A stretch of 64,000 bases of DNA from Chryseobacterium taeanense. Lineage in GTDB: Bacteria; Bacteroidota; Bacteroidia; Flavobacteriales; Weeksellaceae. A model generated the notes under the pieces. It saw only the letters and a program-made list of their open reading frames with translations. It was not told the DNA's origin and ran no database searches. The stretch spans positions 248,001 through 312,000 of the forward strand of contig NZ_FNDW01000003.1 of assembly GCF_900099685.1 (NCBI RefSeq), given 5' to 3'. The translations under genes were made by a program, and so were the position numbers. The stretch's first letter is position 1. Every line of letters starts with the position of its first letter. Shown in pieces: positions 41,702 to 57,815 of the stretch.

Positions 41702-41793
41702 GTACCTGTGGCACTGAGCGGTTCGCCCGAGTGTCAGTGAACGGACAGTACGGATGGCATTGACCGGACAGTACGAGTGGCACCGTCCGGTCT
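41702..41793. repeat. Tandem array of four 23-bp units
   Basis: Units at 41702-41724, 41725-41747, 41748-41770 and 41771-41793 fit GTACGnGTGGCAnTGAnCGGACA, each with a few differences. Units 1 and 4 are the most diverged. The array ends 4 bases past the stop of the minus-strand gene at 41798. 23 is not a multiple of three, so it does not encode a protein repeat. The last unit can form an ACCGGAC/GTCCGGT hairpin. Confidence 0.75.
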
Positions 41794-41797
41794 GAAA

Positions 41798-42532
41798 TTA
41801 CTCTACCGTAAGAGGCTTATCAAGTAATGCTGTTCTGGGTTGCTTCAGCATACTGCTGTCGGTGAACTGAGTCACAATTTCCAGGTTATAAGTTCCCGCT
41901 GCTAATTCAGGAATTACCAGGATAATCTCCGAAGGATTGTTGGTAACGATATCGGAAGAATCTACTTTGGTTCTAGCCTGTGTTGTGGCATCTACAAAAT
42001 AGATTCCTACCGAAGAATCATCACCGGTTACTTTAATCTTGCTTCCTACAATCTTCAGGTTTCTGCCCGGCGTAAGAAGGTCATTTACCGAACCACTCTT
42101 TACATCCGTTACCTGTAGGATCACCGCAGAAGATTCTGCTACGCCAAGAATATTGACTTCAATATTAGGAATCTCTGCTCTCAGCTTTTCTCCCTGGTTG
42201 AACTGGAAGATAATGCTGTGTTTGTCTTTGTTAAACGTCTCCGACGGACTATCAAACACCCCGCGGATGGTGGTGCTTGCGGTGAAATACCCTGTATTCA
42301 CCGAAAAGCCGTCGCATAGCTGGTAGGCCATTTCTTTCAGGAAAAGTTCGGTGGCGTGTTCCATTGAAGAGGCAGAGATATCTGCACCGCCACGGGATAC
42401 CGCTGCCTGACAGATTTGTTGTACATTGAGGCTTCGCTCGCTCACCGTGCGCGCCGTAAAATCGTTGGGATTGTCTTTGGTTAAAGTGTTATCGTAGAGA
42501 TACGCTTTGATTCTGTGAAGTATGTTTGCCAT
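41798..42532 (-). CDS. HU-like DNA-binding domain plus DUF4469-type Ig-like domain protein
   Basis: 244 residues. The N-terminal part (about 1-130: VQQICQAAVSRGGADISASSM, ELFLKEMAYQLCDGFSVNTG, STTIRGVF) matches the HU/IHF-like domain found in Bacteroidota proteins of the Bvu_2165 type. The C-terminal part (about 130-244: LLTPGRNLKIVGSKIKVTGDD and IILVIPELAAGTYNLEIVTQF) matches the DUF4469 Ig-like fold attached to it. No signal peptide. Such proteins are common in Bacteroidota, often in several copies, and have no settled role. DNA binding is inferred from fold only. Confidence 0.82.
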   Translation of the reverse strand: MANILHRIKAYLYDNTLTKDNPNDFTARTVSERSLNVQQICQAAVSRGGADISASSMEHATELFLKEMAYQLCDGFSVNTGYFTASTTIRGVFDSPSETFNKDKHSIIFQFNQGEKLRAEIPNIEVNILGVAESSAVILQVTDVKSGSVNDLLTPGRNLKIVGSKIKVTGDDSSVGIYFVDATTQARTKVDSSDIVTNNPSEIILVIPELAAGTYNLEIVTQFTDSSMLKQPRTALLDKPLTVE

Positions 42533-42697: not shown

Positions 42698-43243
42698 TTA
42701 CTTCGGTCCCCAGAAGCTCCATCCCTGGCCATTGAAAACGGCGATCTGATGGGCCGTGGTATCGTAGACCACCAATCCCGGAGCGGGATCTATAATGTTC
42801 AGATGCGGACTTGCCACTTTGGGAAGCACCATCGCTTTATCGGTATCTGAGAGTACCAGGATCCCTTTAAGATCAGGATTCTCAGTATCTCCTATCCTTA
42901 CCATGGCGGATGAAACTTCCGGCTTGGTCTCCTGAAGCGAAGTATCTACCGCAGCCAGTGTCCCGGCATTGGGATCGGCAGCGCTCAAGGTCTGCCAGGT
43001 TCCCGCCACGACGGCTTTCACCTGGGCATCGGCAGGATCAAAAATAATCATGCCGTCTACCATATCGGGAATAGTTTTCGTATCAGGATCTACTTTTACC
43101 CAAGGAAGTATCAGGCCCCGGTTCTCAGTGTTTCCGAACTCAAGGGATACCCAGTTGTTGGTAACCGAAGTTTTGCCGATCGCCACCTGGGAAAAGCAGA
43201 CCGATGAGACCAGCAGCCCTCCTGCAATTAGTATTGATTTCAT
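42698..43243 (-). CDS. Secreted protein of unknown function with a terminal GLVVYD...W motif
   Basis: 181 residues. A signal peptide ends near CFSQ. The mature part is a beta-rich chain, with RGLILPWVKV and DGMIIFDPADAQVKAVVAGTWQTL early and GLVVYDTTAHQIAVFNGQGW at the end. The block G-[LM]-[IV]-[VI]-x-D-x4-x2-V-x-n-G-x-W occurs twice here and again in the two large secreted proteins next door. No enzyme motif. Similar proteins are common in Chryseobacterium-like genomes, without a known role. It lies 90 bases after the giant gene, which has its own terminator between them. Confidence 0.8.
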   Translation of the reverse strand: MKSILIAGGLLVSSVCFSQVAIGKTSVTNNWVSLEFGNTENRGLILPWVKVDPDTKTIPDMVDGMIIFDPADAQVKAVVAGTWQTLSAADPNAGTLAAVDTSLQETKPEVSSAMVRIGDTENPDLKGILVLSDTDKAMVLPKVASPHLNIIDPAPGLVVYDTTAHQIAVFNGQGWSFWGPK

Positions 43244-43333: not shown

Positions 43334-46300
43334 TTAATCAGGACAGGTCTGCTGACCGATCTCATACCATCCGGCAACTCCGTTCTTCACGGTATAGACT
43401 TTCAGCATTCTGTTGGTAAGGTCCATCACGATCATCCCTTCCACCGGAGAAGTCAGAATAGGAGTCGTGTCATCATCTGCCACAGGTTGGTTGGAATCAT
43501 TGAATCTCACCCTGTTGATGATCATACCTTTGGTTTTTGCTTCAAGAGCCATCCAGCCTCCTTTTCTTACCATCGGCCAGTTGTCGGCATTTACACCGGC
43601 TCTTCCAAGAGCTGTGATTCCCGCTTTGGTCGCTAAAGCTGTTCCGGAAGTTACCGCAGGCTTATAGCATACCGAAGTAGCCGTGGTGAAGGACATGTAA
43701 TTGAGTGAAGGTACGACACCTCCGGATACATAGAAAGCATAATATTCCGTACCATTAATCGTTTCTTTTCCACTGTTGGCGATCACGAAAGCGGTACCGT
43801 CGCTTAGTTTGGCAGCGGTAGAAGCAAAGATCAGTCCTATGGAACTGGACGATGCATTTCCGAATGCTGAAACAGGATAGTAAACGCCAATCTTATCGGC
43901 AAAGTTCCCTTTGTTCTGCACTTTCCATACACGGCTGAAACGCTTGGTGTAGGTGAGCCCATTGGATGCTACGTTTCCTGTGGCCACTCTGGTGGTTAAG
44001 GATCCGTTGTCGTCTCCCCATACCAAGTACTGCATATCTGAGCTGAAGGTATTGGTATTGGCCTTATTGCTTGCCTCTACAGCATTAAGTGCTACGAGCA
44101 CCTGGCTGTCAGTCTCAATATTGGCCGTTGCACCTCGGTTCACACTCTGACTCTGCTTCTGGTTGAGTGCCGTAAGGTCGTCCCTTCCGATTCCTGCGAT
44201 GTTGTACTTATACGTCGCATCGGCTGTCCAGCTCTTGCTTCCATCTGATGCCAGATAATCCTGACCTGTTGTTGGCTGATAGATGGTAATACCATATTTC
44301 AGGGCAAGATAGCTGTTTACCTTCAGTCGCTTCGTATCATCCAGTGACGAAGAATATTCGACCATTTCCGGAATTTTACCGTTGGTAGCGTTACCCATGA
44401 CAAGGTTTCCGCCTGTCCAGTTGGTACTGTTAGCTAGAGTGTTAAGCTGTTTGGCATTGATCCCGCTGTACAATACATCTCCTGCTGCTGTTCTCCATCC
44501 TGAATATAGTTCTGAAGAACCTCCTGAAGGTGCGGCCGTAGTATTGGTGGCTGAAGATCCGCCTAATGTCAGGTTAACATATCCTGCACCGGCAGAGCTG
44601 AACTGCAGAAGATTACCCCCTGCCACTTTTGGCTGAAGGAAATAATGCGCACCCAATATATCGGATACTGCGAAAACAGCTACATTCTTCTGACCGTCGA
44701 TACCCAGCGTTCCTGTGATATCGAAGTTCTGACCACCATTAAAGGCCAGTACCGGGTTGAAGTTCATATTATCCGTCACATTGTTCCTGTACGTAGGCTG
44801 CTGACCGGAAACGACCTGTGTACCGTGGCTGTTGTTACCACTCTGATCCTTCCATGTTGCTACTGATGCATTATCTGCGTTGGAAACTATTTCCTCATCA
44901 TCAGCACGCAGCCACAGGTTCTCACCTGCTACTCCTCCCGGTGACTTTTGATAGTACGCCATGGTGAAGAAGAACTCCGACTGATTCACCTGCGCCGCAG
45001 GAATGGTGAATGCTTTATAGTCTACTGAGTTGATCGTTACCACACCGGCAGTATTGCTCTCAAACACCTGGCTTCCTGCAGGGAATGTAGCATCCGTACT
45101 GTAGAGCAGTGAAGACACTTTCAGGTTTTTGATGTATGTTGCCGGTACCAATACCTGGATATCTTTTGAAAGATTCTTGGTATTCTGTACCCTCCATACC
45201 CTATTAAGTCTCTCCTGATAAGGATATAAGGCTGTGAATGTTGAAGTATCACCCGACATATCGGTATTGTTGTCTCCCCATACCAGGAACTGAAGATTGG
45301 TATCAAAGGTTCCTGTATTGGCTTCATTGGTGGCCGCTATGTTATCAAGACCAATGATCACCTGCTTGCCACTGTTTACACTCTGGCTCTGTTTCTGATA
45401 GAGATCACTGATGTCATCTCTACCGATCCCTGCAATATTATTCTGGTAGGTATTGCTGCCTGTCCAGAAAGAAGTATTGTTAACTGCATCGGATGACAAA
45501 TAGGTGAACGGAGAACTGTTAGTACCCAGTGTTACCCCATATTTCAATCCTAAATAAGAATCGATACGCTGCTTATCGGTAGAAGACGGGATCGTATTAT
45601 AATAGATCACTTCCCCGATAACACCGTTCCAGTTTTCACTTCCTGACTGTCTTGTCCCTATTCTTCCTATGTTTAGTACAGTATTTATTGGAGCTGTTGC
45701 TGTGGTACTTGCAATCGGAAGGGCATTATACGTTCCATAAATATTACTATTGTTAGCTGCCCCATACGAAATTACCGGTGTATTAGACGCATAAGGAGAA
45801 GCTGAACTATAAGGGCTAAAATCATGACCATACGTTGTCACCAAAACATTATTACCCGATCTCATCAGTCCGAAGTTTTGAGCGTCAGCACTCGTACCAT
45901 AGCTGGTAAGCCACTCGAAAGTTCCTCCTGTGACCGAAGTTCTACCCACACCGAATACCGATCTTATCTTGCTTCCATTTGCCATTCCCGCATCACTGAA
46001 GGACATGAAATCTGATAGTGAAGAATTGACTGTATCCGCATTAAAGGTGAACGACGGGTTAAAGTTCAACAGGGAAGTTCCTGATGTATTGTACACCGGC
46101 TGGTTGACTGCCACCGACTGGGTCGCGTCTGCATTAACCGTCTGATCTTTCCATGTAAGGGTAGAGCCTGTCACCACATCCCTGTCGGCACGGTACCATC
46201 TCACCAGGTTAGTAGTTACCCCACCCGGACCGTTAAGCGGGGCCGCAAAGGTGAAGTAATTTCCTGTTGGAATCTGGATACCGGCAGTTACACCTGAAGC

Positions 46301-49300
46301 AAGTACTTTATAGGTAACATTTGATGAGAATGTAGGATCTGTACTGTAGATCAGGTAGGTTGCTCTCACGTTGTCTACTTTTACAAAGACATTCTGAGGT
46401 GTTCCGGTCTGCTGTACTTTCCATACACGATTCATGATAGCATTCAGACTGTGGCTTAACCCTGACTTTAAGGCAAAGGTTGTCGGCTGCCCGTTGTGTC
46501 CTGTGATAAAGTAATATTTATCATTAGCAATATCGGTATGCCCACTTGCCCCGCTCTGGTTGTTGTTGGTAAAGTTATTATCTGTACTCAATGTGATAAT
46601 ATCCGATACCGGCATCTGGCTCTTCGTAATGCGCTGATGAAGCGCTGTGATATCGTCTCTGCCGATACCGATCACATTGTTCTGGTAAACAGCATCGCTC
46701 TCCCAGATACGAACGGTACCATCGTAACTGGCCAGGTAATCTCCCTCCTGAATCGGAGCTGATATGTTCTCGCCTGATGTTCCGTTACCATTATTATCAC
46801 GGCCTAACGTAATACCGTACTTCAAAGCAAGGTAGCTGTTAAGCTGAATACGTTGAGATGCTGTGATATTTTTCTTAAACACCACAAACTCACCGAAGAC
46901 CCCTGTAAAAGGATTATAATCTTCCCTGTTTCCAGGTACATCTCCCAAACGGATTACACTGCATCCGTTGTAAGTAGTGCTGCCTGTAAAATTCAATACA
47001 TTGTTTCCATTGATGAGTACGTTTGATCCATCGGAAACTGTATTCTTAAACGAAGCCATATTGATGGTAGCATAACCACTATTACCACCGTTGTATCCAA
47101 TTGAATGGTTATCGTTGGCAATCTTGGTGGTAAGCAGAGAGCGCTCATCAAGGATACCACCTAAGTCTGTACCCCATACATCCTGCTCTTTTACCGCATC
47201 TGCTTTGTACATGATAGCCACGTCTGCATCAGGAGATGATACACGGGAAATATCTGCCTGGATCATACCCCAGGTCCAGCCTGTACCGGGACCAAATCCT
47301 GCTACGCTATTGTAGTTAAAGGTTTTCCCCAAGGTCATCTGGCCTGCTGAACCTCCTAAACAGTCATTGATGTCAAAACGGAGATTATTATTGTTTCCAC
47401 TTTGATCTAACCAAGTCTGCGTTCCTGTAAGACCAATATCGCCACGAAGCCATACCACTTCATCTTCTACACCACCAGGCCACTTCATAAAGGTAGCAAA
47501 CGTAAAATAGGATCCTGAAGGGATCTGTACGCCCTGCTGTGTTACTCCTGCCATAAGCTGTTGATATTGAACATTGGAAGAGAACGTAGGATCATTACTA
47601 TACACAAGATAGGTGGCGAGATTGTCTGTCGTTTTGATATAGACATCCTGCGCTGTACCTGTTCTCTGTACTTTCCATATACGTTTCATCAAGGCATTAA
47701 GCCCATTGCTTAAACCTAACTTTTTAGCATAAGATGTTGCCGCGTTATTATTTCCGGTGACAAAGAAAAACTTGTCATTCACAATATCGGTATGCCCGTT
47801 AGTACCACTCTGGTTCTTATTCGCAAAATTACTGTCGGTACTCAGGGTAATGATATCCGGTGTCGCCGACTGACTCGTGGTAATACGCTGATGGAAAGCC
47901 GAGATATCATCTCTTCCAAGCCCTACCACGTTGTTCTGATACACCGCATCGGATGACCAGGTTTTGGTCGTACCGTTACTCGCCAGGTAGTCACCTTCAA
48001 ATATTTGTACCGGTGAAGCCGATACCATATCGCCAACAGGCAGTTTTCCGTCGTTGTTTCTTCCAAGTGTAATTCCGTACTTCAATGCCAGGTAGCTGTT
48101 GAGCTGGATACGATCGATCGCACTCATGTTCTTTTGGTACACGACCATATCACCTACTACTCCTTTGAAGACATTGCCCGCACCTTTTACGTCGCCTAAA
48201 CGGATGTTGTTACAACCCGAATAGGTGGTGGACCCTGTAAAGTTAAGCACATTGTTTCCATTAATCAATACATTGGATCCGCCAGAAACCGTACCCTGGA
48301 AGGAAGCCACATTGATCGTAGCAGCCCCTGAATTACCTCCGCTATAGCCAATTCCTGTATTATCGTTGGCGATTTGGGTAGTAGTTAATGAACGTTCATC
48401 AAATGCACCTCCCCAATCTGTACCCCATACGTCCTGTGCATAGGCACCGTCAGTCTTATACACAATGGCTACATCGGCATTAGCGTGTTGAAGACGTGAA
48501 ATGTTGGCAGGTGTGTATCCCCACACCCAGTTGTCATTGTCTCCAAAGCTTGCTACGGGGTTGAAATTCAGAGTTTCTCCTAACACCATCTGCCCTCTTG
48601 GGTTTTCATTACAGGCATAGGTGCTAAATTGGAGGTCATTATTGTTAACCGCAGGACTTTGATCTTCCCAAAGCGTATTGGTAAGGCCTGTGTCACCGCG
48701 AAGCCATAAGACCTCATCTCTTACCCCACCCGGTGACTGCTCGTAGAAAGCCAGGGTCATATAGAACGAAGCCTGGTTCACCATTACAGCAGGAACCGTA
48801 AATACACGGTAAACCACCGAGTTTATGGTTACAGTATTCGGATTCGGATTATACACCTGGTAGGTGTTGGCCGAAAAGGCAGCATCGGTACCGCATAATA
48901 AGCTGCTGCTGGAAGAGACAAGCGTAAATGGCACCAATACCTGAACACTTTGGTTCACCGCATTGGTATTCTGTACTCTCCATACCCTGCTTAACCTTGT
49001 GTTGTAGCCGGAAATTCCTGTAAAAGGAGTTGTATTGGCTGCATTATTATCCCCCCACATCAGGAACTGCAGGTTGTTAAGCGTTCCGGTATTGGCTGCA
49101 TTGGTAGCCACCACCGTGGAAAGACCCATAATAAGCTGAGATCCTGTATTTACTGATTGAGACTGCTTTTGCAACAACGCGGAAGCATCGTCTCTTCCGA
49201 TTCCGGCGATGTTATTTTGATAAGTACCATCTTCGGATTTCCAGAATCTTGTTGTTGCGTTGGAAGCTAAATAATCTCCTTCATAAATGCCGCTTCCAGT

Positions 49301-52300
49301 TCCTATTTCTTCTCCAGAATTAGTATCACCATCGGAATCTTTGGATAACGTCACACCATATTTAACGGCTAAATAAGAATTAATTCTTAACCGTTCTATA
49401 TCGGAAAGAACAGTATTATGGGTAATAACTTCAGGAATTGCTCCACTAAAGTAAAGCGCACGACCAGCAATTGTTCTTGAGCCTATGCTTACTAAGCTTG
49501 CTGGTGAAGGAATTTGATTGATCGTTCCTGTTTTTATTATTGAATTATTCTTATAAATCTTAGCTCCATTGGTAGTATTGCTCATAGAAGACCCAAATAA
49601 TTGTGGGATTCCTGCATCAACAGTCGTTGCACTGATTATTGACACCCAGCTACCATTATTTTGCCCGAATTCTACAGTTCCGTTATTTAATCTGAACTCT
49701 CCTCCATTACTTGTGCCTACAGCACCAAAACTTAATATATTTCTAACATTGCTATCAGTTACTGCAGGTGGTCTTACAGCAGAAAACAATGTATTTGTGG
49801 AACCATTGATAAAGCTATTTGCATCAATATAGTCATCAACTCCATCGAAAGACACAATTGGATTAAAATTCATTAGCTGAGAAGGTACAGTACGATATAA
49901 TGGCTGATTTCCAACTGTAGCCTGTAATGCATTGGTTCCATTACCGCTTTGGTCTGCCCAAGATGATAATGGAGTACTATCAACAACTGTAGAAGTTCCT
50001 GCATCAGCTTTTAACCATAATGATACCCCGGCAACTCCTCCCGGCGCAGTTACGTATCCTGCAAAGCTGAAGAAGTGTCCTGAAGTAAATCCATCTAAAT
50101 TGGTATCTACCTCTGCTACATAATACTGCACTCCTCCCAATGATACTTGTGTCATAGCCTTTCTGGCATCACTGCCATCAAAAGTAGCATCATCACTGAT
50201 TAATAATGACGGCATGGTTACACTCACCGGCAACTGACTTACCGGTATGGCTACTTTTACCGTTCCTATTGTTCCTGTCTTCTGTATTTTCCAGATTCGG
50301 GTCATCCTGAAATTGGAGCTTCCATAGGCAAAAGGTGTTGCAAAAGAGGTACTTCCTGTATCAGAACCCCAAACCAGGAAGCTTTTGTCTGAAGTAAAGT
50401 CATTGCCATTATTTGCATTGTTATCGGCAATGTTTACATTCCCGATAACAGGCTGGATTCCTCCGTTTACCGATTGTGACTGCTTTTGATTCAAGGCAGA
50501 AGCATCGTCTCTACCGATCCCGGTGATGTTGTTCTGGTAAGTTGCATCAGTACTCCAAAATTTTGTATTACCATCTGAAGCTATATAATCTCCTTCAAAA
50601 ATGCTTCCCGCTACTATAGGCTCTCCAGAAGTTGCATTTCCATTATTGTTACGGGATAAAGTTAGTCCATATTTAATTCCCAAATATGAGTTAATCCTTA
50701 AGCGCTCTACATCGGTATGAGATGAAGGATACATAATCAATTCTCCAAGTAATCCATTAAACCTATCTTGGTTTGTATTATCATTTGAACGCCCAACATA
50801 TGGTATAGAATTATGATTAGCCATATTGCCTGAACCCACCCATAATTGTGTTACAAGCTTACCTGCATTAACGTAAGCTAAAGTAGATGAGGCGGAAGCA
50901 CCAGCAATAATATCCATATTTGCCAAAAGCTTATTATAGCCAATATCTGTAGTAGTATTTACATATGTTACACCCCCTGTTCCATCTGCATCATTATCTC
51001 CAGCAGCCATTCTCTGACCCTTAAAGAAATATGCGGCGTTACCGTAGGTCGAGCTTGTACCTGAAATAACTGTGTTTGCAAAAGCATCGGATCCGGCTGA
51101 AAATTGATACATTCCATAGCCATTTTTAAATAATATAGCCCTATCTCCAGTCAGGTAGCCTGATCCATTAAAATAGACTGCATTATTAAAATTAATTGTC
51201 TGCGTACCTGTTTGTATTGTATTAGTAACAGAAAAATTATTATTCCCTGTCTGATCTATCCATTGCGTTAAGGTTGTGGAACTAGATGATACATCCTTAT
51301 TTCCTTTTAACCACAAGGATGCTCCCAACACCCCTCCAGGCGCTGTCATAAAAGCCGCAAAGCTGAAGTATTGCCCTGAAGACAAGTCAATATTAGCGTT
51401 GATATCTGTTACATAGTAATCTACTCCACCGATGGTTTCTTTAGTCATTAAGAACCTGTCATCAAGACCGTCAAACGTTGTATCACCACTTACCAATAAG
51501 GTTGGTTTGGTTACACTTCCCGGAAGATCACTTACTTTTAACGCAACCCTTACCTTGCCTACCGTTTGGGTTTCCTGTACTTTCCAGATACGTGTCATTC
51601 TGTTATTCAGCCCGCCAAAAGCAAATGCCGTGGCAAAATTGGTGCTGCCTGTATCTGAACCCCACATCATGAAGGTCTTATCGGCACCAAAATTATTGTT
51701 GTTGTTGGCGTTAGTATCTGATATATTCGCATTTCCGATCACAGGCTGGATGCCACTGTTTACCGATTGCGACTGCTTCTGGTTCAGACCTGACGCATCA
51801 TCTCTACCGATACCGGCGATGTTATTCTGGTAACCAGAATTCGAAGTAGAATTATAATAGGCAACAGCATCTGAAGATATATAATCACCTGACTTTGTTA
51901 CACCATATTTTAGAGCAAGGTAACTTTCTACTTTGCTTAATGTTGCTCCTGTGAGCTCACCTTCATAAGCAATCACTTCACCGGCTGTAAACAATGCAGA
52001 AATATTATTACCTCCACCACCAAATACATCATTTCCTAAAACATATCCCTGAGTTCCACTTTGAAGTGATTTTCCGGTCAGATTACCCGCTTGTGCTCCA
52101 TTCTGTCTTAAGGTAACAGCACCTGCTGATGGGCTTACCGATAAACTAGTTAGTACAGTTGTTCCCAAAATTGCCGGATTATAAGAAATAGTTGATCCGG
52201 TACCTCCTGTACTTCCCGCCTCAGCATGATAGCTTCCTGATATTCTTACAGATGGTAGCTCATTCCAGTTATTGCTCCCTGAAGAGCCTAAATTAGTGAA

Positions 52301-53959
52301 TGCACCAAGCATTTTATCCGTAGATGCACCACTTCTGGGATTTGAAATCAGAAATAAATGGATACTTGCTGTACTTGTACTTACCATGCCTCCTGTTACA
52401 TTATATATGCGGGAGTTTGTAGTTGTGAAATCAACAGTAGGATTGAAATTGGCTGAATAGGCATTATTATTACCAGCTCTAAAGAAAACGCTATTGGCAT
52501 TACCTGCATTTCTGTTCAAACCACTTTGGTCATTCCACACCGTCAGACTCGCCCCATCAGCAGTAGTATCAGTACCTACATCCGCTTTTAACCACAGCTT
52601 TTCTCCTAATACTCCTCCTGGCGCGGTTACAAATCCTGCAAAGCTGAAGTATTGCCCTGAAGTGATGTTAAGATTAATAGGATCCGTCACGTAGTAGTCG
52701 ATCCCACCAATTGTTTCTTTCTTCATTAAGAAATTACTATCCGAGCCATCAAAGGTGGCATCACCACTGATTAGTAAGGTAGGCTGGGTAACCGCACCCA
52801 GCCACATACTTACCGGGATGGCTACTTTTACAATGCCTACGCTTCCTGTCTTTTGCATTTTCCAGATACGAGGCATTCGGTAGTTTAACCCATTAAATGC
52901 AAAAGGCGTTGAGAAAGTAGTACTCCCTGTATCGGATCCCCATACCAGGAAGTCACCGTCCACGGCAAAGCCGTTGCTATTACTGCTGTTCGTAGCCGCA
53001 AGATTACCCTTTGCAATAATCGGCTGGAAACCGCTATTTACGGATTGCGATTGCTTTTGAAGCAGCCCGGAATTAAAATCCCGACCGATACCGGCGATGT
53101 TGTTATTGTACCCGCTGTTATCTGTTTTATTCCAGACTGTGGTACCGTCTGAGAGATTGTAATCGGAAGGCAGTGTGGTTCCGTATTTAATCGCAAGGTA
53201 AGACTCTACCTGAATACGTTGTGCTTCTGAGAGTGCCGTCTTATATATAATAACCTCACCTATAGAGCCATTGTAATAACTTGACCCGCCAAGAGAACCA
53301 ATATACATCGGTTTATTTTGTCCACTGTAGTTGTTCATGGCGGTACCAGAAACGATCTCTGTCCCGTTTCGTCTCAATGAGGTCTTAGTCGGGCTTGAAG
53401 TGTTCCAACCCGTCCATATGTAGGGGGTGTTCACGGCTCCTCCCCATGCTGTCTCAATTCTATTCGTACCGGTTCCATCCCAGTACATAATACTATTCCC
53501 CCAAGGGGCGTGTAAAGTAAATTGAGCATCTGCATTAGATTGGTTTTTAACTATTTCATAAAATATAGAACTGTTTTGAACCGTCTTCACCGAGCTTACG
53601 ACAAAAGCTGTTGCATTGCTATTGGTAGAAGTTCCAAAAACCCCGTTACTATCGGAAAGTTCATTATTGCTTCCGTTAAATGATACTACAGGGTTAAAAT
53701 TTATGTTTCCTGAGCTATTATTGATATATGCGGGACGCTTAGTGTCCGTTGACTGTGTCATGTCATTCGCATTACCACTGAAATCACTCCACTTCGACAC
53801 ATTGCCATTAGCATCTGTCGTGAGCGTAGTGGAATCATCCACCCTCAGCCAGAGTGACGCACCGGCGACCCCTCCGGGGCCGGTCTGCGCCTTGAGCATG
53901 TTACTACAATATCCTGTCAATAAGCAGAATATTGTCATTAAATAAATTTTGTTTTTCAT
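43334..53959 (-). CDS. Giant secreted modular protein with eight LamG-like/DUF8202-type modules
   Basis: 3541 residues, uninterrupted. A signal peptide ends near MLKAQ. Eight modules of about 420-435 residues follow, each opening PGGV-x4-LWL-[KR]-[AG]-D and W-x-DQSGN, then NFNP-[VS]-x-x-F-[ND]. Next come a stretch like GEVI-x-Y-x5-S-x2-[ER]-R-x3-[NE]-SYLALKYG, then YQNNIAGIGRDD, QKQSQSVN, FLVWG-[SD] and RIWKVQ. The first part of each module looks like a concanavalin A/LamG-type lectin fold; the second matches the DUF8202-type region of flavobacterial proteins. The last 110 residues carry EGMIVMDLTNRMLKVYTVKNG...W, as in two neighbours. No membrane anchor and no typical type IX secretion tail were seen. 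It is probably a surface or extracellular adhesin; function unknown. Confidence 0.9.
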   Translation of the reverse strand: MKNKIYLMTIFCLLTGYCSNMLKAQTGPGGVAGASLWLRVDDSTTLTTDANGNVSKWSDFSGNANDMTQSTDTKRPAYINNSSGNINFNPVVSFNGSNNELSDSNGVFGTSTNSNATAFVVSSVKTVQNSSIFYEIVKNQSNADAQFTLHAPWGNSIMYWDGTGTNRIETAWGGAVNTPYIWTGWNTSSPTKTSLRRNGTEIVSGTAMNNYSGQNKPMYIGSLGGSSYYNGSIGEVIIYKTALSEAQRIQVESYLAIKYGTTLPSDYNLSDGTTVWNKTDNSGYNNNIAGIGRDFNSGLLQKQSQSVNSGFQPIIAKGNLAATNSSNSNGFAVDGDFLVWGSDTGSTTFSTPFAFNGLNYRMPRIWKMQKTGSVGIVKVAIPVSMWLGAVTQPTLLISGDATFDGSDSNFLMKKETIGGIDYYVTDPINLNITSGQYFSFAGFVTAPGGVLGEKLWLKADVGTDTTADGASLTVWNDQSGLNRNAGNANSVFFRAGNNNAYSANFNPTVDFTTTNSRIYNVTGGMVSTSTASIHLFLISNPRSGASTDKMLGAFTNLGSSGSNNWNELPSVRISGSYHAEAGSTGGTGSTISYNPAILGTTVLTSLSVSPSAGAVTLRQNGAQAGNLTGKSLQSGTQGYVLGNDVFGGGGNNISALFTAGEVIAYEGELTGATLSKVESYLALKYGVTKSGDYISSDAVAYYNSTSNSGYQNNIAGIGRDDASGLNQKQSQSVNSGIQPVIGNANISDTNANNNNNFGADKTFMMWGSDTGSTNFATAFAFGGLNNRMTRIWKVQETQTVGKVRVALKVSDLPGSVTKPTLLVSGDTTFDGLDDRFLMTKETIGGVDYYVTDINANIDLSSGQYFSFAAFMTAPGGVLGASLWLKGNKDVSSSSTTLTQWIDQTGNNNFSVTNTIQTGTQTINFNNAVYFNGSGYLTGDRAILFKNGYGMYQFSAGSDAFANTVISGTSSTYGNAAYFFKGQRMAAGDNDADGTGGVTYVNTTTDIGYNKLLANMDIIAGASASSTLAYVNAGKLVTQLWVGSGNMANHNSIPYVGRSNDNTNQDRFNGLLGELIMYPSSHTDVERLRINSYLGIKYGLTLSRNNNGNATSGEPIVAGSIFEGDYIASDGNTKFWSTDATYQNNITGIGRDDASALNQKQSQSVNGGIQPVIGNVNIADNNANNGNDFTSDKSFLVWGSDTGSTSFATPFAYGSSNFRMTRIWKIQKTGTIGTVKVAIPVSQLPVSVTMPSLLISDDATFDGSDARKAMTQVSLGGVQYYVAEVDTNLDGFTSGHFFSFAGYVTAPGGVAGVSLWLKADAGTSTVVDSTPLSSWADQSGNGTNALQATVGNQPLYRTVPSQLMNFNPIVSFDGVDDYIDANSFINGSTNTLFSAVRPPAVTDSNVRNILSFGAVGTSNGGEFRLNNGTVEFGQNNGSWVSIISATTVDAGIPQLFGSSMSNTTNGAKIYKNNSIIKTGTINQIPSPASLVSIGSRTIAGRALYFSGAIPEVITHNTVLSDIERLRINSYLAVKYGVTLSKDSDGDTNSGEEIGTGSGIYEGDYLASNATTRFWKSEDGTYQNNIAGIGRDDASALLQKQSQSVNTGSQLIMGLSTVVATNAANTGTLNNLQFLMWGDNNAANTTPFTGISGYNTRLSRVWRVQNTNAVNQSVQVLVPFTLVSSSSSLLCGTDAAFSANTYQVYNPNPNTVTINSVVYRVFTVPAVMVNQASFYMTLAFYEQSPGGVRDEVLWLRGDTGLTNTLWEDQSPAVNNNDLQFSTYACNENPRGQMVLGETLNFNPVASFGDNDNWVWGYTPANISRLQHANADVAIVYKTDGAYAQDVWGTDWGGAFDERSLTTTQIANDNTGIGYSGGNSGAATINVASFQGTVSGGSNVLINGNNVLNFTGSTTYSGCNNIRLGDVKGAGNVFKGVVGDMVVYQKNMSAIDRIQLNSYLALKYGITLGRNNDGKLPVGDMVSASPVQIFEGDYLASNGTTKTWSSDAVYQNNVVGLGRDDISAFHQRITTSQSATPDIITLSTDSNFANKNQSGTNGHTDIVNDKFFFVTGNNNAATSYAKKLGLSNGLNALMKRIWKVQRTGTAQDVYIKTTDNLATYLVYSNDPTFSSNVQYQQLMAGVTQQGVQIPSGSYFTFATFMKWPGGVEDEVVWLRGDIGLTGTQTWLDQSGNNNNLRFDINDCLGGSAGQMTLGKTFNYNSVAGFGPGTGWTWGMIQADISRVSSPDADVAIMYKADAVKEQDVWGTDLGGILDERSLLTTKIANDNHSIGYNGGNSGYATINMASFKNTVSDGSNVLINGNNVLNFTGSTTYNGCSVIRLGDVPGNREDYNPFTGVFGEFVVFKKNITASQRIQLNSYLALKYGITLGRDNNGNGTSGENISAPIQEGDYLASYDGTVRIWESDAVYQNNVIGIGRDDITALHQRITKSQMPVSDIITLSTDNNFTNNNQSGASGHTDIANDKYYFITGHNGQPTTFALKSGLSHSLNAIMNRVWKVQQTGTPQNVFVKVDNVRATYLIYSTDPTFSSNVTYKVLASGVTAGIQIPTGNYFTFAAPLNGPGGVTTNLVRWYRADRDVVTGSTLTWKDQTVNADATQSVAVNQPVYNTSGTSLLNFNPSFTFNADTVNSSLSDFMSFSDAGMANGSKIRSVFGVGRTSVTGGTFEWLTSYGTSADAQNFGLMRSGNNVLVTTYGHDFSPYSSASPYASNTPVISYGAANNSNIYGTYNALPIASTTATAPINTVLNIGRIGTRQSGSENWNGVIGEVIYYNTIPSSTDKQRIDSYLGLKYGVTLGTNSSPFTYLSSDAVNNTSFWTGSNTYQNNIAGIGRDDISDLYQKQSQSVNSGKQVIIGLDNIAATNEANTGTFDTNLQFLVWGDNNTDMSGDTSTFTALYPYQERLNRVWRVQNTKNLSKDIQVLVPATYIKNLKVSSLLYSTDATFPAGSQVFESNTAGVVTINSVDYKAFTIPAAQVNQSEFFFTMAYYQKSPGGVAGENLWLRADDEEIVSNADNASVATWKDQSGNNSHGTQVVSGQQPTYRNNVTDNMNFNPVLAFNGGQNFDITGTLGIDGQKNVAVFAVSDILGAHYFLQPKVAGGNLLQFSSAGAGYVNLTLGGSSATNTTAAPSGGSSELYSGWRTAAGDVLYSGINAKQLNTLANSTNWTGGNLVMGNATNGKIPEMVEYSSSLDDTKRLKVNSYLALKYGITIYQPTTGQDYLASDGSKSWTADATYKYNIAGIGRDDLTALNQKQSQSVNRGATANIETDSQVLVALNAVEASNKANTNTFSSDMQYLVWGDDNGSLTTRVATGNVASNGLTYTKRFSRVWKVQNKGNFADKIGVYYPVSAFGNASSSSIGLIFASTAAKLSDGTAFVIANSGKETINGTEYYAFYVSGGVVPSLNYMSFTTATSVCYKPAVTSGTALATKAGITALGRAGVNADNWPMVRKGGWMALEAKTKGMIINRVRFNDSNQPVADDDTTPILTSPVEGMIVMDLTNRMLKVYTVKNGVAGWYEIGQQTCPD
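43670..53880 (-). repeat. Eight tandem coding modules, about 1.25-1.3 kb each
   Basis: PGGV module starts (minus strand, approximate): 53880, 52620, 51340, 50042, 48735, 47480, 46225, 44940; the last module ends near 43670. Modules 5 and 6 (48735-46226) are the most alike: both lack the QKQSQSVN block and instead have HQRIT-[TK]-SQ, an NNQSG/KNQSG-G-HTDI block and TLGKT/LGETLN-FNP-type text. Modules 1-4 and 8 share the QKQSQSVN block. Module 7 has the divergent start VRWYRADRD. Confidence 0.85.
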
Positions 53960-54008
53960 TATAAGATTTTAATAGTATTGTGTTATATTCTTTTGAATAC
54001 ACTACTGT

Positions 54009-54608
54009 TTATACAATACTATTAAAAGGGGGAGGCCGAGAGAAGTGAATCGTTAATATTCCTGAGACAGGGCTAAGAATGGTAGCATACGATACACGTT
54101 CCTCTTCCCTGAATATGATGTATTTTTCAAAGCTGAATCTTTCGTAAACCGCAATATGTTTTACAGAAGGATTGCCCGTAACGACCGCCATACTGCCATT
54201 ACCACCCGCAAGTCCCAATCTATACCTGTTCTCTGAAAAGGGTAAAGAAATGGTTTTGGAAGTGGCTGGATCTTGTGGCTTTCGAACATCCTGAGCTTTT
54301 GCAGGCTTTTTTAGTTCAGCAAACTTTCGATTGTTTTTCTTTTTACCTAAGAGGAGATTTTTATTGTCAGCAACTATTTTGACTGAATTTTCAGTGATGT
54401 ATCCGTCATCTTCCAGTCCGGATACTGTAACTCCGTCTTTTACGTAAACGGACGTTCCTTTTTCTATGTAGATTCCGGCATCTGCCCCGGAGTATGATTG
54501 AGCGTGTACATTGAAACCGGCAATAATGAAAAAAAAGAAGAGCTTCCCTATTGTGTGGGAGGCTTTCTGTTTCCAAACTTTTCTCATTAATTGCGCTGCT
54601 TTTTTCAT
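54009..54608 (-). CDS. Secreted protein of unknown function
   Basis: 199 residues from the ATG at 54608. A TTG nine bases earlier and an ATG at 54587 are other possible starts. A hydrophobic segment (LFFFFIIAGFNVHAQ) fits a signal peptide cleaved after the AQ. The mature part begins with beta-rich text (DAGIYIEKGTSVYVKDGVTVSGLEDDG), then a basic Lys-rich linker (KKKNNRKFAELKKPAKAQ). A second beta-rich part (RYRLGLAGGNGSMAVVTGN) follows, ending in RPPPFNSIV. No family recognised. It lies 49 bases before the giant gene on the same strand, so the two are probably cotranscribed. Confidence 0.75.
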   Translation of the reverse strand: MKKAAQLMRKVWKQKASHTIGKLFFFFIIAGFNVHAQSYSGADAGIYIEKGTSVYVKDGVTVSGLEDDGYITENSVKIVADNKNLLLGKKKNNRKFAELKKPAKAQDVRKPQDPATSKTISLPFSENRYRLGLAGGNGSMAVVTGNPSVKHIAVYERFSFEKYIIFREEERVSYATILSPVSGILTIHFSRPPPFNSIV

Positions 54609-54908
54609 CGTGTGCAAAAGGCGAGTCGTGTAAGACTGCTTTTATGTCTACAAATTTACATAAAATATAATAACATCCAAAAAAAACAACACTTTGTATA
54701 TTAAATTATTCATAATTATTAAATTATCGTTAATATAATTTATGTTTTCTCAAACAAAAGTGAATAAAATACACATCGCTCTAATTTCAACTCTGGCAGT
54801 GTTTAAGCACAAGATGATTGCTATACCGATGGTAATATTTATTCTCTTAAACTATAAAAGCGCGACTTTCTATTCAAATAAATATCATTCAGAGAGATAA
54901 TTTACGAG

Positions 54909-55264: not shown

Positions 55265-57163
55265 TTACCAAGATTTTGTAGTTGTTGCTATACCCTGCTG
55301 AAGTATAACCCCATAATTACCTCCATAGCTATTCTGTCTGAAAGGAACTGAGCTCTCATCCCCGCCAGAATGATAGTTAAAATAATAAGTATTAGACCCC
55401 ACCAGAGTACTCTTTACTCCAACGGACAGATAGGAACCCAAATAACCATTTCCCGAAGTGTTAGGTGTTGTTGTAGTCGGTCGTTTACAAACGAAATACA
55501 TTCTGCCACCGCCTTTTATTCTGAATTTATTCCCCATTTGGGTAAAACCTGTTGTTCTTGAAGCTGATACTTTTACGTTATTATTATAGCCATCTTGGTT
55601 CTGATATATAACCACAGAAAAACCGATCATATAACTATTTGCTGGTACCGGAGCATCATTGTCATTGCTCGCAAAAGTGTAATTACTTCCCTGATTAATT
55701 AATGATGATGTATTCATTTGCGCATTCGCCTGACCAACTAAAGTAGCTCCGGGAATATTGGCAGTATTGTAAACCGCAGCATATTCGGCTGCAGTAACCT
55801 TTACCCAATCGTTTACCGATGCTGTATCATAAGCAGCACAGCTTGTACATGCTGTTCCTTCTGCTGCTGCTGCTGCTTCAAGCGCACCTCGTATAGCATC
55901 ACCATATACAACAGTACACGTGGAGCCTGCAACCAATGACGGATTAAAAGTAACAATCTGGTTACTCGCACCTGTATAGGTACCACTAAGCGTATAGGTG
56001 ATCGTACCACTTGTAGAGGTGAATGTACCAGCACTCCTTTCTAATGTCAAACCATTTACGGTAAATGTTTGTGCAGGATAGCTTACGCCCACCGTAGCAC
56101 CGGTATAAGACATTGTGTAAGAACCGGTATAAGCAGTATTATTTATCAAGGTGCCTGCAGGAGATTGTGTCGTGTTGCCACAGGTAACAACAGGAGTGTT
56201 ATTTACCGTGAAGTTAAGAGTACAGCTCTTTCCTCCTATACTAATAGGGAAAGCTGCTGTTCCTCCTCCGGATGGAGTTCCTGTAATATTATAGGTTAAA
56301 GAACCGCCTGGAGTAAAGTTACCGCCCACTAAGGTAGCAGTTAATCCGGTAACTCCCGTGGATGAAATTGTCTGATCATTATACCCGGAGCCATCACCTC
56401 CTCCATAGCTGATTACTGCAGATACACCGTTTGCCGGGATACCCCCTATTAAAATCCCATTTTTAGTTGCCCCTGCGCAATCCAGTGAGGTAATAGGCGG
56501 CTCAATTACTGCAACTGTTTTTGCACAGTTTAACGATAATTTTGCCCAGGTTCCCATTAAAGTCCCTGAAGAGGTTGGTGTACCGCTAAGCGTATATTCA
56601 ACCAGCTGCGACTGCCCTGAAATCAAAGAGACGGTTGGTGGACTTACAGAAGCCACAGTAATGCCTGAAACGCCACTCAATGCCAAATCAGAGGTCTGAA
56701 ATGCAATCGTTGCCGTAGTGAATGAGTTGTTTGTAACAGTTACAGAAAACTTATTTGACGATGCCATAGCTGTTCCATTAGCATAGCTTCCTGTAAACCC
56801 ATTTGTATTACAATCCGACACTACTGAAGCTGTAACACTTCCCATACTTAGGCTCTTCCATACAGCGCCGTCAAAATAATAGTAACCGGGTGCTGTAATA
56901 CCCGCTGTTTTGATTGTCCTCGGAATCGTAGCTGCCGATGTAGCATATGCAATAGTTCCCGTCTGTGCAATTTCGTATTGCGCATCTGCTGCCTTGATTT
57001 GATCTCCAGTAAGACGAGGCGCAATAAACCCTTCAGGCCTGCTACCGTCGGTGGTCTTAGCGGTTACGTCAAGAGTAGCCTTGGGCGTGGTTGTATTAAT
57101 CCCAACTTGGCTAAAAAGAGATAAATTGCATAATGAAACAGCAATTGTAATAAATTTTTTCAT
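55265..57163 (-). CDS. Large secreted protein with Ig-like repeats (VGINTTTPKATLDV type)
   Basis: 632 residues. A signal peptide ends near LFSQ. The N-terminal part has VGINTTTPKATLDVTAK, RPEGFIAPRLTGDQI, and GTIAYATSA...PGYYYFDGAVWKSLS, a block found in many flavobacterial exoproteins and in phage tail fibres. Residues about 115-430 hold about three beta-sandwich repeats with TL-x-Y-x-[LI]-SGT-type text (YTLSGTPTSSGT, YNITGTPSGGGT, YTLSGTYTGA). The C-terminal 200 residues contain no motif I know. Probably exported and surface-exposed; function unknown. Upstream region shows no clear promoter. Confidence 0.82.
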   Translation of the reverse strand: MKKFITIAVSLCNLSLFSQVGINTTTPKATLDVTAKTTDGSRPEGFIAPRLTGDQIKAADAQYEIAQTGTIAYATSAATIPRTIKTAGITAPGYYYFDGAVWKSLSMGSVTASVVSDCNTNGFTGSYANGTAMASSNKFSVTVTNNSFTTATIAFQTSDLALSGVSGITVASVSPPTVSLISGQSQLVEYTLSGTPTSSGTLMGTWAKLSLNCAKTVAVIEPPITSLDCAGATKNGILIGGIPANGVSAVISYGGGDGSGYNDQTISSTGVTGLTATLVGGNFTPGGSLTYNITGTPSGGGTAAFPISIGGKSCTLNFTVNNTPVVTCGNTTQSPAGTLINNTAYTGSYTMSYTGATVGVSYPAQTFTVNGLTLERSAGTFTSTSGTITYTLSGTYTGASNQIVTFNPSLVAGSTCTVVYGDAIRGALEAAAAAEGTACTSCAAYDTASVNDWVKVTAAEYAAVYNTANIPGATLVGQANAQMNTSSLINQGSNYTFASNDNDAPVPANSYMIGFSVVIYQNQDGYNNNVKVSASRTTGFTQMGNKFRIKGGGRMYFVCKRPTTTTPNTSGNGYLGSYLSVGVKSTLVGSNTYYFNYHSGGDESSVPFRQNSYGGNYGVILQQGIATTTKSW

Positions 57164-57815
57164 TGTTTGTATTTAAATAACGTTTATGATTAAATCCTGA
57201 AGAGTAACCTTAAACCTAAAAAACTAGTTTAAGCTTGTTATCTTCATTAAATTAGTGTATTCGATTTCTTACTATTCTTATTACGTTAGGTTTTAAAAAG
57301 GTAACGTCATAGCATAATGAAAATTAAGAATAGTTTTAAAGTCTATAGGACTGGCGGAGGACGACCGCAATGATCTATAGTAAACTTTAATCTAAACGAA
57401 GGATATATTATGTAAAGAAGATTTTTAAACAAAAAGACTTTCCAGAAAAAAGCATCCGCTGTTTTCATATTTTTCAACATCTGACTTTATAACTAAATTA
57501 AAAGCTTGCTGATGAATCTTCTGATACAAAAGAATCATTGGGAAAGAAAAAAATATAGCCGGAAGGAAAGAAATTCTGAAAATATATTGATATTGCTATG
57601 AAAAATAACTGCAACAATAGCAGTCTTGCGGAGGGACACACGAAAGCGGAAAGCCATAATGTTTTCATCATAAATGTTTATTGTGTTGTAAAGAAAAAGC
57701 CTGTTTTAAAGCCCTTTTCCGAAACAAATATAAACAAATTATCATTATTTCCAAAAATACTCTTTAATAATAAAATGTCTAAATGATTGCTTTTACTGAT
57801 AATTTAATACTGAAA
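57164..57815. other. Gene-free region between the secreted-protein gene and the thiamin operon
   Basis: 652 bases, AT-rich. It shows an ACGTTA/TAACGT inverted repeat (57283-57288 with 57302-57307) and a small GCGG/CCGC hairpin (57354-57368). A 62-codon open frame at 57598-57786 has no recognisable features. I see no convincing promoter or RNA gene. Confidence 0.6.

Follow-up and report, generated by a model that had tools for sequence, protein, structure and literature searches.

The stretch of DNA analysed here (hereafter, the window) comprises 64,000 nucleotides (nt) of Chryseobacterium taeanense, a member of the Weeksellaceae (assembly GCF_900099685.1, contig NZ_FNDW01000003.1, positions 248,001 to 312,000 of the forward strand), and contains a gene for a protein of 3541 amino acids (aa) with eight tandem modules, hereafter the giant. 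Upstream of this gene lies a leader open reading frame (ORF) which is hypervariable among its relatives except for the tetrapeptide RPPP near its end, and which is probably a ribosome-arrest switch. A predicted RNA hairpin lies between the two genes, and a partner gene, related in sequence to the C-terminal tail of the giant, follows downstream. The features of this cassette are as follows.

43334..53959, minus strand: giant modular protein, predicted secreted, 3541 aa, ATG start, no internal stop
52622..53878, minus strand: module 1 (aa 28-446), from the alignment of modules
51341..52621, minus strand: module 2 (aa 447-873), from the alignment of modules
50045..51340, minus strand: module 3 (aa 874-1305), from the alignment of modules
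48734..50044, minus strand: module 4 (aa 1306-1742), from the alignment of modules
47480..48733, minus strand: module 5 (aa 1743-2160), 65% identity to module 6, from the alignment of modules
46229..47479, minus strand: module 6 (aa 2161-2577), from the alignment of modules
44942..46228, minus strand: module 7 (aa 2578-3006), with residues 1-230 a predicted ConA/LamG jelly roll and residues 231-429 a second beta domain
43679..44941, minus strand: module 8 (about aa 3007-3427), from the alignment and the structural model
43337..43669, minus strand: C-terminal tail domain, about 111 aa, CYKP...DNWPMVRKGGWMALEAKTKG...PVEGMIVMD...KVYT...WYEIGQQTCPD, from a profile
42698..43243, minus strand: partner gene, 181 aa, two repeats related to the tail, starting 90 nt after the giant gene
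54009..54617, minus strand: upstream leader ORF, 199-202 aa, starting with TTG at 54617 or ATG at 54608 and ending ...HFSRPPPFNSIV-stop
54027..54038, minus strand: RPPP codons (CGG CCT CCC CCT), five codons ahead of the stop, where the ribosome is proposed to arrest
53967..54027, minus strand: RNA hairpin between leader and giant, with a 15-bp stem (54013-54027 with 53967-53981), from folding compared with shuffles

Modules of the giant protein

The first-pass annotation of this DNA had described eight modules with shared blocks after a signal peptide, and such an arrangement is indeed present in one real ORF on the minus strand. As elsewhere in this work, where signal peptides and signal-like N-termini were judged by eye or by hydropathy, the signal peptide of the giant (MKNKIYLMTIFCLLTGYCSNMLKAQ) was recognised by eye. 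The motif PGGV opens the modules at residues 28, 447, 874, 1306, 1743, 2161, 2578 and 3007, and the PGGV/LWL-like, NFNP-like, SYLxxKYG, G(I/L)GRD and R(I/V)W(K/R)xQ blocks were found in all eight, with small departures such as RW in module 7 and GIGRDF in module 1. Modules 1 to 7 are 417-437 aa long and module 8 is followed by the separate C-terminal domain. Pairwise identity between modules is 25-65%, modules 5 and 6 being the closest pair, and 35 columns of the alignment are invariant in the eight modules. No tandem repeat was reported inside the giant gene at DNA level with periods of up to 500 nt, a search that the module period of about 1280 nt lies beyond. In the host genome (3.94 Mb in 30 contigs, 99.99% complete; genus label g1) a search with module 2 gave matches in the giant gene only, at 11 places. 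Pfam gave no family for the whole giant at E<=1 nor for any module at E<=10, the curated LamG family included, and the NCBIfam scan of the whole protein gave one match at E 0.017, far below the cut-off. The DUF8202 label that had been considered for the modules was not confirmed by Pfam, the presence of a DUF8202 model in the copy used not being established, and the term did not occur in the literature searched.

Structure was predicted with AlphaFold2 for modules 7 and 8 plus the tail (964 aa, 85 sequences), giving a mean predicted local distance difference test (pLDDT) score of 84.1 and a predicted template modelling (pTM) score of 0.80, with pLDDT below 50 in the linker that precedes the tail (model residues 855-903). 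Residues 1-230 of module 7 were modelled as a ConA/LamG two-sheet jelly roll of about 200 residues, with VIA Z scores of up to 20.1 against the GH54 arabinofuranosidase 1wd3 (root-mean-square deviation 2.6, 217 aligned residues) and AbnA 5ho2, followed by a trans-sialidase (Z 19.4) and a phage tailspike (Z 19.3). The LamG/ConA-like fold that had been proposed for the modules is thus predicted for the first 230 or so of their approximately 425 residues in modules 7 and 8, and for modules 1-6 by homology. The proposal does not extend to the second half, which when modelled alone for module 7 (119 sequences, pLDDT 89.6, pTM 0.88) was almost all-beta and found no clear match in the PDB, the best being GAIN/ZU5 domains with a VIA Z of 6.1 and a Foldseek E of 0.048. 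This match is too weak to name a fold, and the lack of a better one is no proof of a new fold. Each module is therefore modelled as a lectin-like domain plus a second all-beta domain. Sequence searches of the PDB gave no match for the module profiles (E<=0.1) or the tail profile (E<=1), and one match for the partner profile (E 0.089). Structural matches to the binding domains of tetanus and botulinum toxins were discarded as evidence of toxin identity, being due to the common jelly roll only, with about 10% identity. In addition, the lectin-like part of module 7 matched a virion structural family of PHROGs (E 6.5e-10); no phage gene cluster was seen around the giant gene. Beside the partner gene, a 244-aa gene (41798-42532, minus strand) shows about 32% identity to two unannotated phage records from human faeces, and a short 23-bp tandem repeat lies in the intergenic DNA after it (41738-41790).

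Modules of this type are present in 80 of 118 genomes sampled from the host genus. A scan of named genomes, from which the best 73 loci were kept, found them mostly in Bacteroidota, a few coming from Paenibacillus, Cohnella, Thiothrix and other phyla; the ORFs of these 73 loci carry from 1 to 11 modules, many being cut by the ends of the stretches. The nearest named relative among them, at 62% over its best segment, is that of Epilithonimonas caeni. In the two closest orthologues that were examined, from this species and from genome G050, the modules again number eight and keep the order of the giant, and therefore the number of modules seems stable at short range. The change of length by recombination between modules that the first-pass annotation had envisaged was consequently unseen at close range; module counts do vary among wider relatives. 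Module 6 of the window is 89% identical to its E. caeni counterpart and 48% to that of G050, which suggests replacement of single modules. In addition, module 1 of both orthologues (L042 and L116) contains an inserted F5/8C (discoidin) domain (E 1e-23 to 2e-23), which fits a role in surface binding, and no Pfam match was obtained at that position in the giant of the window. Outside the Bacteroidota, single modules were found in Gram-positive proteins of Paenibacillus (L063) and Cohnella (L074), whose C-termini look like S-layer homology repeats by eye; this suggests a surface role of the modules there too.

The RPPP leader and its hairpin

The leader of the window has a signal-like N-terminal segment and a hypervariable middle, and a gap of 49 nt separates it from the giant gene. 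Its relatives were looked for upstream of 31 distinct giant loci of the Chryseobacterium group. These loci, chosen for their modules, remained from 42 rows after removing ten duplicates (L001, L002, L017, L019, L021, L024, L036, L043, L048 and L095) and L035, with only 531 nt of upstream DNA; the truncated L046 and L122 and loci in which the start was not reached (e.g., L028, L037, L040 and L041) were not counted, and L113, a metagenome-assembled genome of the Flavobacteriales, was placed in the group by its tail. An ORF ending in RPPP followed by 2-20 residues was found upstream of 27 of the 31 loci: 20 leaders lie within 230 nt of the giant gene, three at 0.97-1.43 kb and four at 3.4-3.7 kb, so that 23 of the 31 loci have one within 2.6 kb. 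The four most distant leaders were found only with longer stretches of DNA and have same-strand surface genes between them and the giant. The order of genes upstream of the giant in L178-L181 is leader, a gene for a 'QVGINTPNPHPSASLELAS'-like protein of about 550-610 aa, one for a 'VGIGTPTPHPSSDLDLG'-like protein of about 190-250 aa, partner and giant. As a control for chance, an ORF ending in R(P/A/G)PP was found within 3 kb of only one of 62 module ORFs from other taxa, this being a RAPP-ending ORF 998 nt upstream of the non-Chryseobacterium homologue L088. Two small RPPP-containing ORFs from other taxa were rejected as candidates, since one (L087) is on the opposite strand and the other (L102) has no signal.

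The host genome was also searched with a degenerate codon pattern for RPPP, in which Ser was admitted for Arg as well, and 48 places matched. Twelve of them are in ORFs of 180-203 aa whose N-terminus is hydrophobic and in which 5-17 aa separate RPPP from the stop. The giant gene follows one of these twelve ORFs, genes for predicted secreted proteins starting QVGINNTSPK(A/S)TLDI follow ten, and the last runs off a contig end. The own-genome loci L135-L174 comprise nine closely alike leaders and two divergent ones, with QVGINNTSPK(A/S)TLDI target genes scattered through the genome. A thirteenth match falls in a much shorter ORF upstream of the next surface gene in the window:

57343..57480, minus strand: second RPPP ORF, short (45 aa), with CGRPPPVL before its stop; the next surface gene starts 179 nt downstream
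55265..57163, minus strand: surface gene that follows the 45-aa RPPP ORF; its predicted secreted product begins ...QVGINTTTPKATLDVTAKT...

Altogether 38 distinct leaders, chosen on the RPPP motif and including nine near copies from the host genome, were compared. Their length is 175-217 aa in 37 cases and 105 aa in the other, and every one has a hydrophobic segment (15-residue mean hydropathy >=1.27), with RPPP 71-179 residues (median 150) after it and 2-20 variable residues before the stop, the rest of the protein being hypervariable. All six Arg codons and all four Pro codons are used among them, and therefore it is the peptide that is conserved and not the DNA. Leaders were also sought around 20 loci carrying the giant's tail across the family, picked from the listed matches to span 14 genera. 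RPPP leaders were found in six (genera g1, g9, g12 and g13) and RAPP-ending ORFs in two, both from genus g7 (L205 and L215). In L215 the next gene, for a predicted secreted 'QVGINTANPQ' protein, starts 25 nt past the RAPP ORF; in L205 the RAPP ORF is downstream of the tail gene and the next gene is beyond the fetched stretch.

In the window, the stem of the predicted hairpin starts from the final base of the RPPP codons, and 7 nt separate its far end from the ATG of the giant. The folding of this hairpin is more stable than that of any of 200 shuffled sequences (z -4.26), and the predicted openness of the giant's start region rises from 0.36 to 0.72 when the first 18 nt are blocked, as they would be by a stalled ribosome.

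C-terminal tail, partner gene and type IX secretion

How the giant is exported and attached had been regarded as unexplained, a statement which overlooked the conserved C-terminal tail, the adjoining partner gene and the RPPP leader upstream. The same annotation was correct in finding no ordinary sorting domain of the type IX secretion system (T9SS), as none of TIGR04183, TIGR04131 and NF033708 matched the giant; these families were likewise absent from the seven Chryseobacterium-group tails examined. The tail profile matched 108 of 148 sampled family genomes, in 25 of 33 genera. In the 20 family-wide loci the main ORF ends 0-4 aa past the tail in every case, with very different N-terminal content and length, and weaker partial copies of the tail lie further inside a few of these proteins. 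Similarly, of the 27 distinct module proteins of the Chryseobacterium group whose C-terminus is complete, 26 have the tail at most 11 aa from it. A scan of the 20 tails against Pfam gave only stray matches (E 0.01-0.1), and a search of the host genome with the single tail sequence found only itself.

The product of the partner gene has a signal peptide by eye and no NCBIfam match at E<=1, and the tail profile matches its homologues twice. A partner-like gene, whose secreted product has about 175 aa, is found 6-120 nt from the tail gene, usually downstream, in 17 of the 20 family-wide loci; L200 and L203 have no partner and L215 is cut by a contig end. With the partner profile, related repeats were detected in two other proteins of the host genome.

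Among module proteins from other taxa with complete C-termini, taken as a systematic set (n=38, E<=0.001, overlaps possible), 23 have TIGR04183 (type A), six NF033708 (type C) and two TIGR04131 (type B). The tail thus stands where homologues elsewhere mostly carry T9SS sorting domains. The host genome has a match to SprA, the sole T9SS component searched, of 2062 bits, and 57 matches to TIGR04183, none of them in the giant. Furthermore, when family genomes at least 90% complete were compared, the tail was present in 102 of 133 with SprA and in none of seven without it (Fisher p 7e-5), a co-occurrence that is suggestive of a link with the T9SS.

Proposed mechanism and comparison with known systems

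Arrest peptides, whose stalling is species-specific, first came to light as monitors of the secretion machinery, and recent work has added RAPP/RGPP leaders of metal and redox genes. Several lines of evidence at sequence level, namely the anatomy of the ORFs, the conservation of the RPPP peptide, the presence of the leader upstream of most related loci, the hairpin, the linkage of tail and partner and the co-occurrence of tail and SprA, together with the predicted jelly-roll fold of the first half of the modules, lead us to consider it fairly probable that the giant is a lectin-like surface fibre, that an arrest leader of the RAPP type which senses export gates its synthesis, and that its tail and the partner assist its display. 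The cassette would consist of leader, giant and partner. The giant would be exported through Sec by means of its signal peptide; the tail would then probably take it over the outer membrane, hold it on the surface, or both, with the help of the partner and most likely with the involvement of the type IX system, while the eight LamG-like modules would make it a multivalent binder of glycans or proteins. At the level of synthesis, we infer that the signal sequence of the leader engages Sec and that the RPPP near its C-terminus stalls the ribosome unless the nascent chain is pulled out or the arrest is otherwise relieved. A ribosome stalled there would, in the window, occupy the 5' arm of the hairpin and so free the start region of the giant gene, tying the making of a 10.6-kb cargo to the state of export or of the envelope. 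The sign and signal of this control, dependence on the T9SS and the nature of the ligand are likewise inferred. Raising the synthesis of an exported cargo when export fails would be odd, and therefore the variable exported part of the leader may sense something other than export, as in CutF. On a wider scale we propose, tentatively, that the Weeksellaceae have a display system of their own, in which the 'TCPD' tail would be a further T9SS-linked class of sorting or anchoring domain with a secreted partner, and in which RPPP/RAPP leaders throughout the genome would gate giant fibres and related surface proteins on co-translational export or an envelope signal.

Several observations weigh against this proposal. 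With respect to the motif, the available parts of PMC12992588 describe RAPP and RGPP, and not RPPP, as the most robust, EF-P-resistant forms of arrest; those of PMC10987492 report that most Escherichia coli and Bacillus subtilis proteins with RAPP-like motifs, RPPP being in the search list, gave no stalling in vitro; and in those of PMC9973294 the proline-rich end of CutF alone did not stall. Regarding distribution, no leader was found in four of the 31 giant loci (L121, L124, L023 and L033), nor an R(P/A/G)PP leader in 12 of the 20 family-wide tail loci. A duplex masking the start was significant (p<0.05) in only seven of 23 leader-gene pairs, close relatives among them, and ten leaders of the host genome lie 195-1328 nt from their gene; start-site masking was for these reasons rejected as a general mechanism. 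As for the tail, that of the window matched nothing in Pfam, PHROG or the T9SS sorting families (the latter at E<=1), 255 aa follow it in the protein of Chryseobacterium arachidis (L132/L095), the seven genomes without SprA belong to only two genera (g22 and g23), and an incomplete genome (G192, 76%) has the tail and no SprA match. Finally, a jelly roll gives no information on the ligand.

The long distances between leader and gene suggest attenuation or other routes at loci elsewhere. A leader acting by transcription attenuation, in the Rho-dependent manner described for CruR in the available parts of PMC9973294, and so lowering expression, would be one form of the arrest model and compatible with it. 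The ten distant leaders of the host genome, too far for simple masking of the start site, and the CruR precedent speak for it; in the window, the gap of 49 nt and a hairpin that extends to within 7 nt of the start codon speak against it, and on the whole we hold this variant to be rather unlikely. A similar degree of doubt attaches to the idea that the giant is simply secreted without the T9SS, or belongs to the matrix, and that its tail is an adhesive or oligomerising domain of a generic kind, in most cases the last one of its protein. This would explain why the tail matches no known sorting domain, why related repeats occur in the partner and in two more proteins of the genome, and why one protein continues for 255 aa beyond it; it accounts poorly for a tail that takes the place of TIGR04183/TIGR04131 in homologues, is C-terminal across many architectures and was not found in seven near-complete genomes lacking SprA.

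It seems improbable that the RPPP ORF encodes a small exported protein working with the giant, such as a chaperone, an anchor or a cleaved factor, with RPPP as a binding or processing motif. The signal-like N-terminus, the length of 175-217 aa of 37 of the 38 leaders and their orientation, co-directional with the surface genes downstream, would agree with such a protein. The leader is, against this, hypervariable save for RPPP, its motif shifts between 2 and 20 variable residues ahead of the stop, RAPP replaces RPPP in genus g7 and one RPPP ORF has only 45 aa and no obvious cleavable signal, and therefore an arrest peptide fits better than a folded partner. That the RPPP segment instead acts at the level of DNA or RNA, for example as a regulatory site rich in C that is in frame by chance, is very improbable in spite of the motif being C-rich and close upstream of genes, as AGA/AGG are used for Arg as well as CGN, third positions of Pro vary, the frame is open for about 100-215 codons and Rfam gave no gathering-level match in the window.

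If the arrest reading is true, a dozen RPPP leaders before predicted secreted surface proteins in one genome would extend the arrest principle to exported cargo, and would provide many natural hypervariable chains, sensing force or a signal, for comparison. In addition, the tail and the partner offer a testable route to the surface for many large secreted proteins of the Weeksellaceae without a recognised sorting domain.

As to structure, the lectin-like half of the modules resembles known ConA-like/LamG domains (the GH54 N-domain, AbnA domain 4 and the trans-sialidase lectin domain) in its jelly roll, with Z of 19-20 and root-mean-square deviations of 2.5-2.8 over about 193-218 residues; it differs from them in that identity is only about 10-13%, Pfam gives no match and the modules of the giant are fused to a second all-beta domain. 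With the SprB-type adhesins, T9SS substrates with a type B C-terminal domain and a PorP/SprF-like partner (PMC12618676, in the parts available), the giant shares its huge repetitive secreted nature, a C-terminal domain and a dedicated adjoining gene. Here, in contrast, the tail is none of TIGR04131, TIGR04183 and NF033708, and the partner, a predicted secreted protein of 181 aa without an NCBIfam match, did not come out as PorP/SprF-like.

No literature on RPPP leaders before surface genes of Bacteroidota was found, in a search that included few subscription papers; in the available parts of PMC10987492, RPPP is named once, in the search of the E. coli and B. subtilis proteomes. According to those of PMC12992588, the Arg of RAPP is irreplaceable, changing its Ala to Pro partly keeps arrest in ApdA and ApdP, with a near wild-type effect for ApdP in B. 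subtilis, and arrest screens reported by others yield RxPP in which x is G, A, S or P. CutF of the Rhodobacter capsulatus cutFOG operon resembles the leader, as far as the available parts of PMC9973294 describe it, in being exported, in its proline-rich C-terminus and, in the window, in a predicted stem-loop shielding the start of the next gene; it differs in that no ligand is known for the leader here and in that the downstream gene encodes a giant surface protein and not a multicopper oxidase.

The closest parallel is with the RAPP-type arrest peptides (RQH family, ApdA/ApdP/ApcA) and SecM, which in the available parts of PMC7897499, PMC10987492 and PMC12992588 are small upstream ORFs with an N-terminal localisation signal, R-x-P-P near the C-terminus and little other shared sequence. 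Correspondingly, the ORF studied here lies before its target gene in 27 of 31 giant loci and before a surface gene in 11 of the 12 own-genome cases, all 38 leaders have by hydropathy a localisation signal with more than 40 aa between it and the motif, and R-(A/G/P)-P-P is near the C-terminus of otherwise dissimilar proteins in leaders that were selected on the motif. The predicted hairpin between leader and giant in the window has the arrangement of SecM-secA, with its stem-loop before the downstream gene (PMC7897499, in part), one that is not general among the leaders. The differences are that the putative arrest motif is RPPP here, with RAPP in two loci of one genus, and that the targets are genes for surface proteins, whereas sec/yidC, TonB, copper and redox genes are those of the known systems, RAPP/RGPP leaders preceding genes of diverse function (PMC12992588, in the parts available). 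Finally, at least 12 copies of the leader are present here in a single genome.

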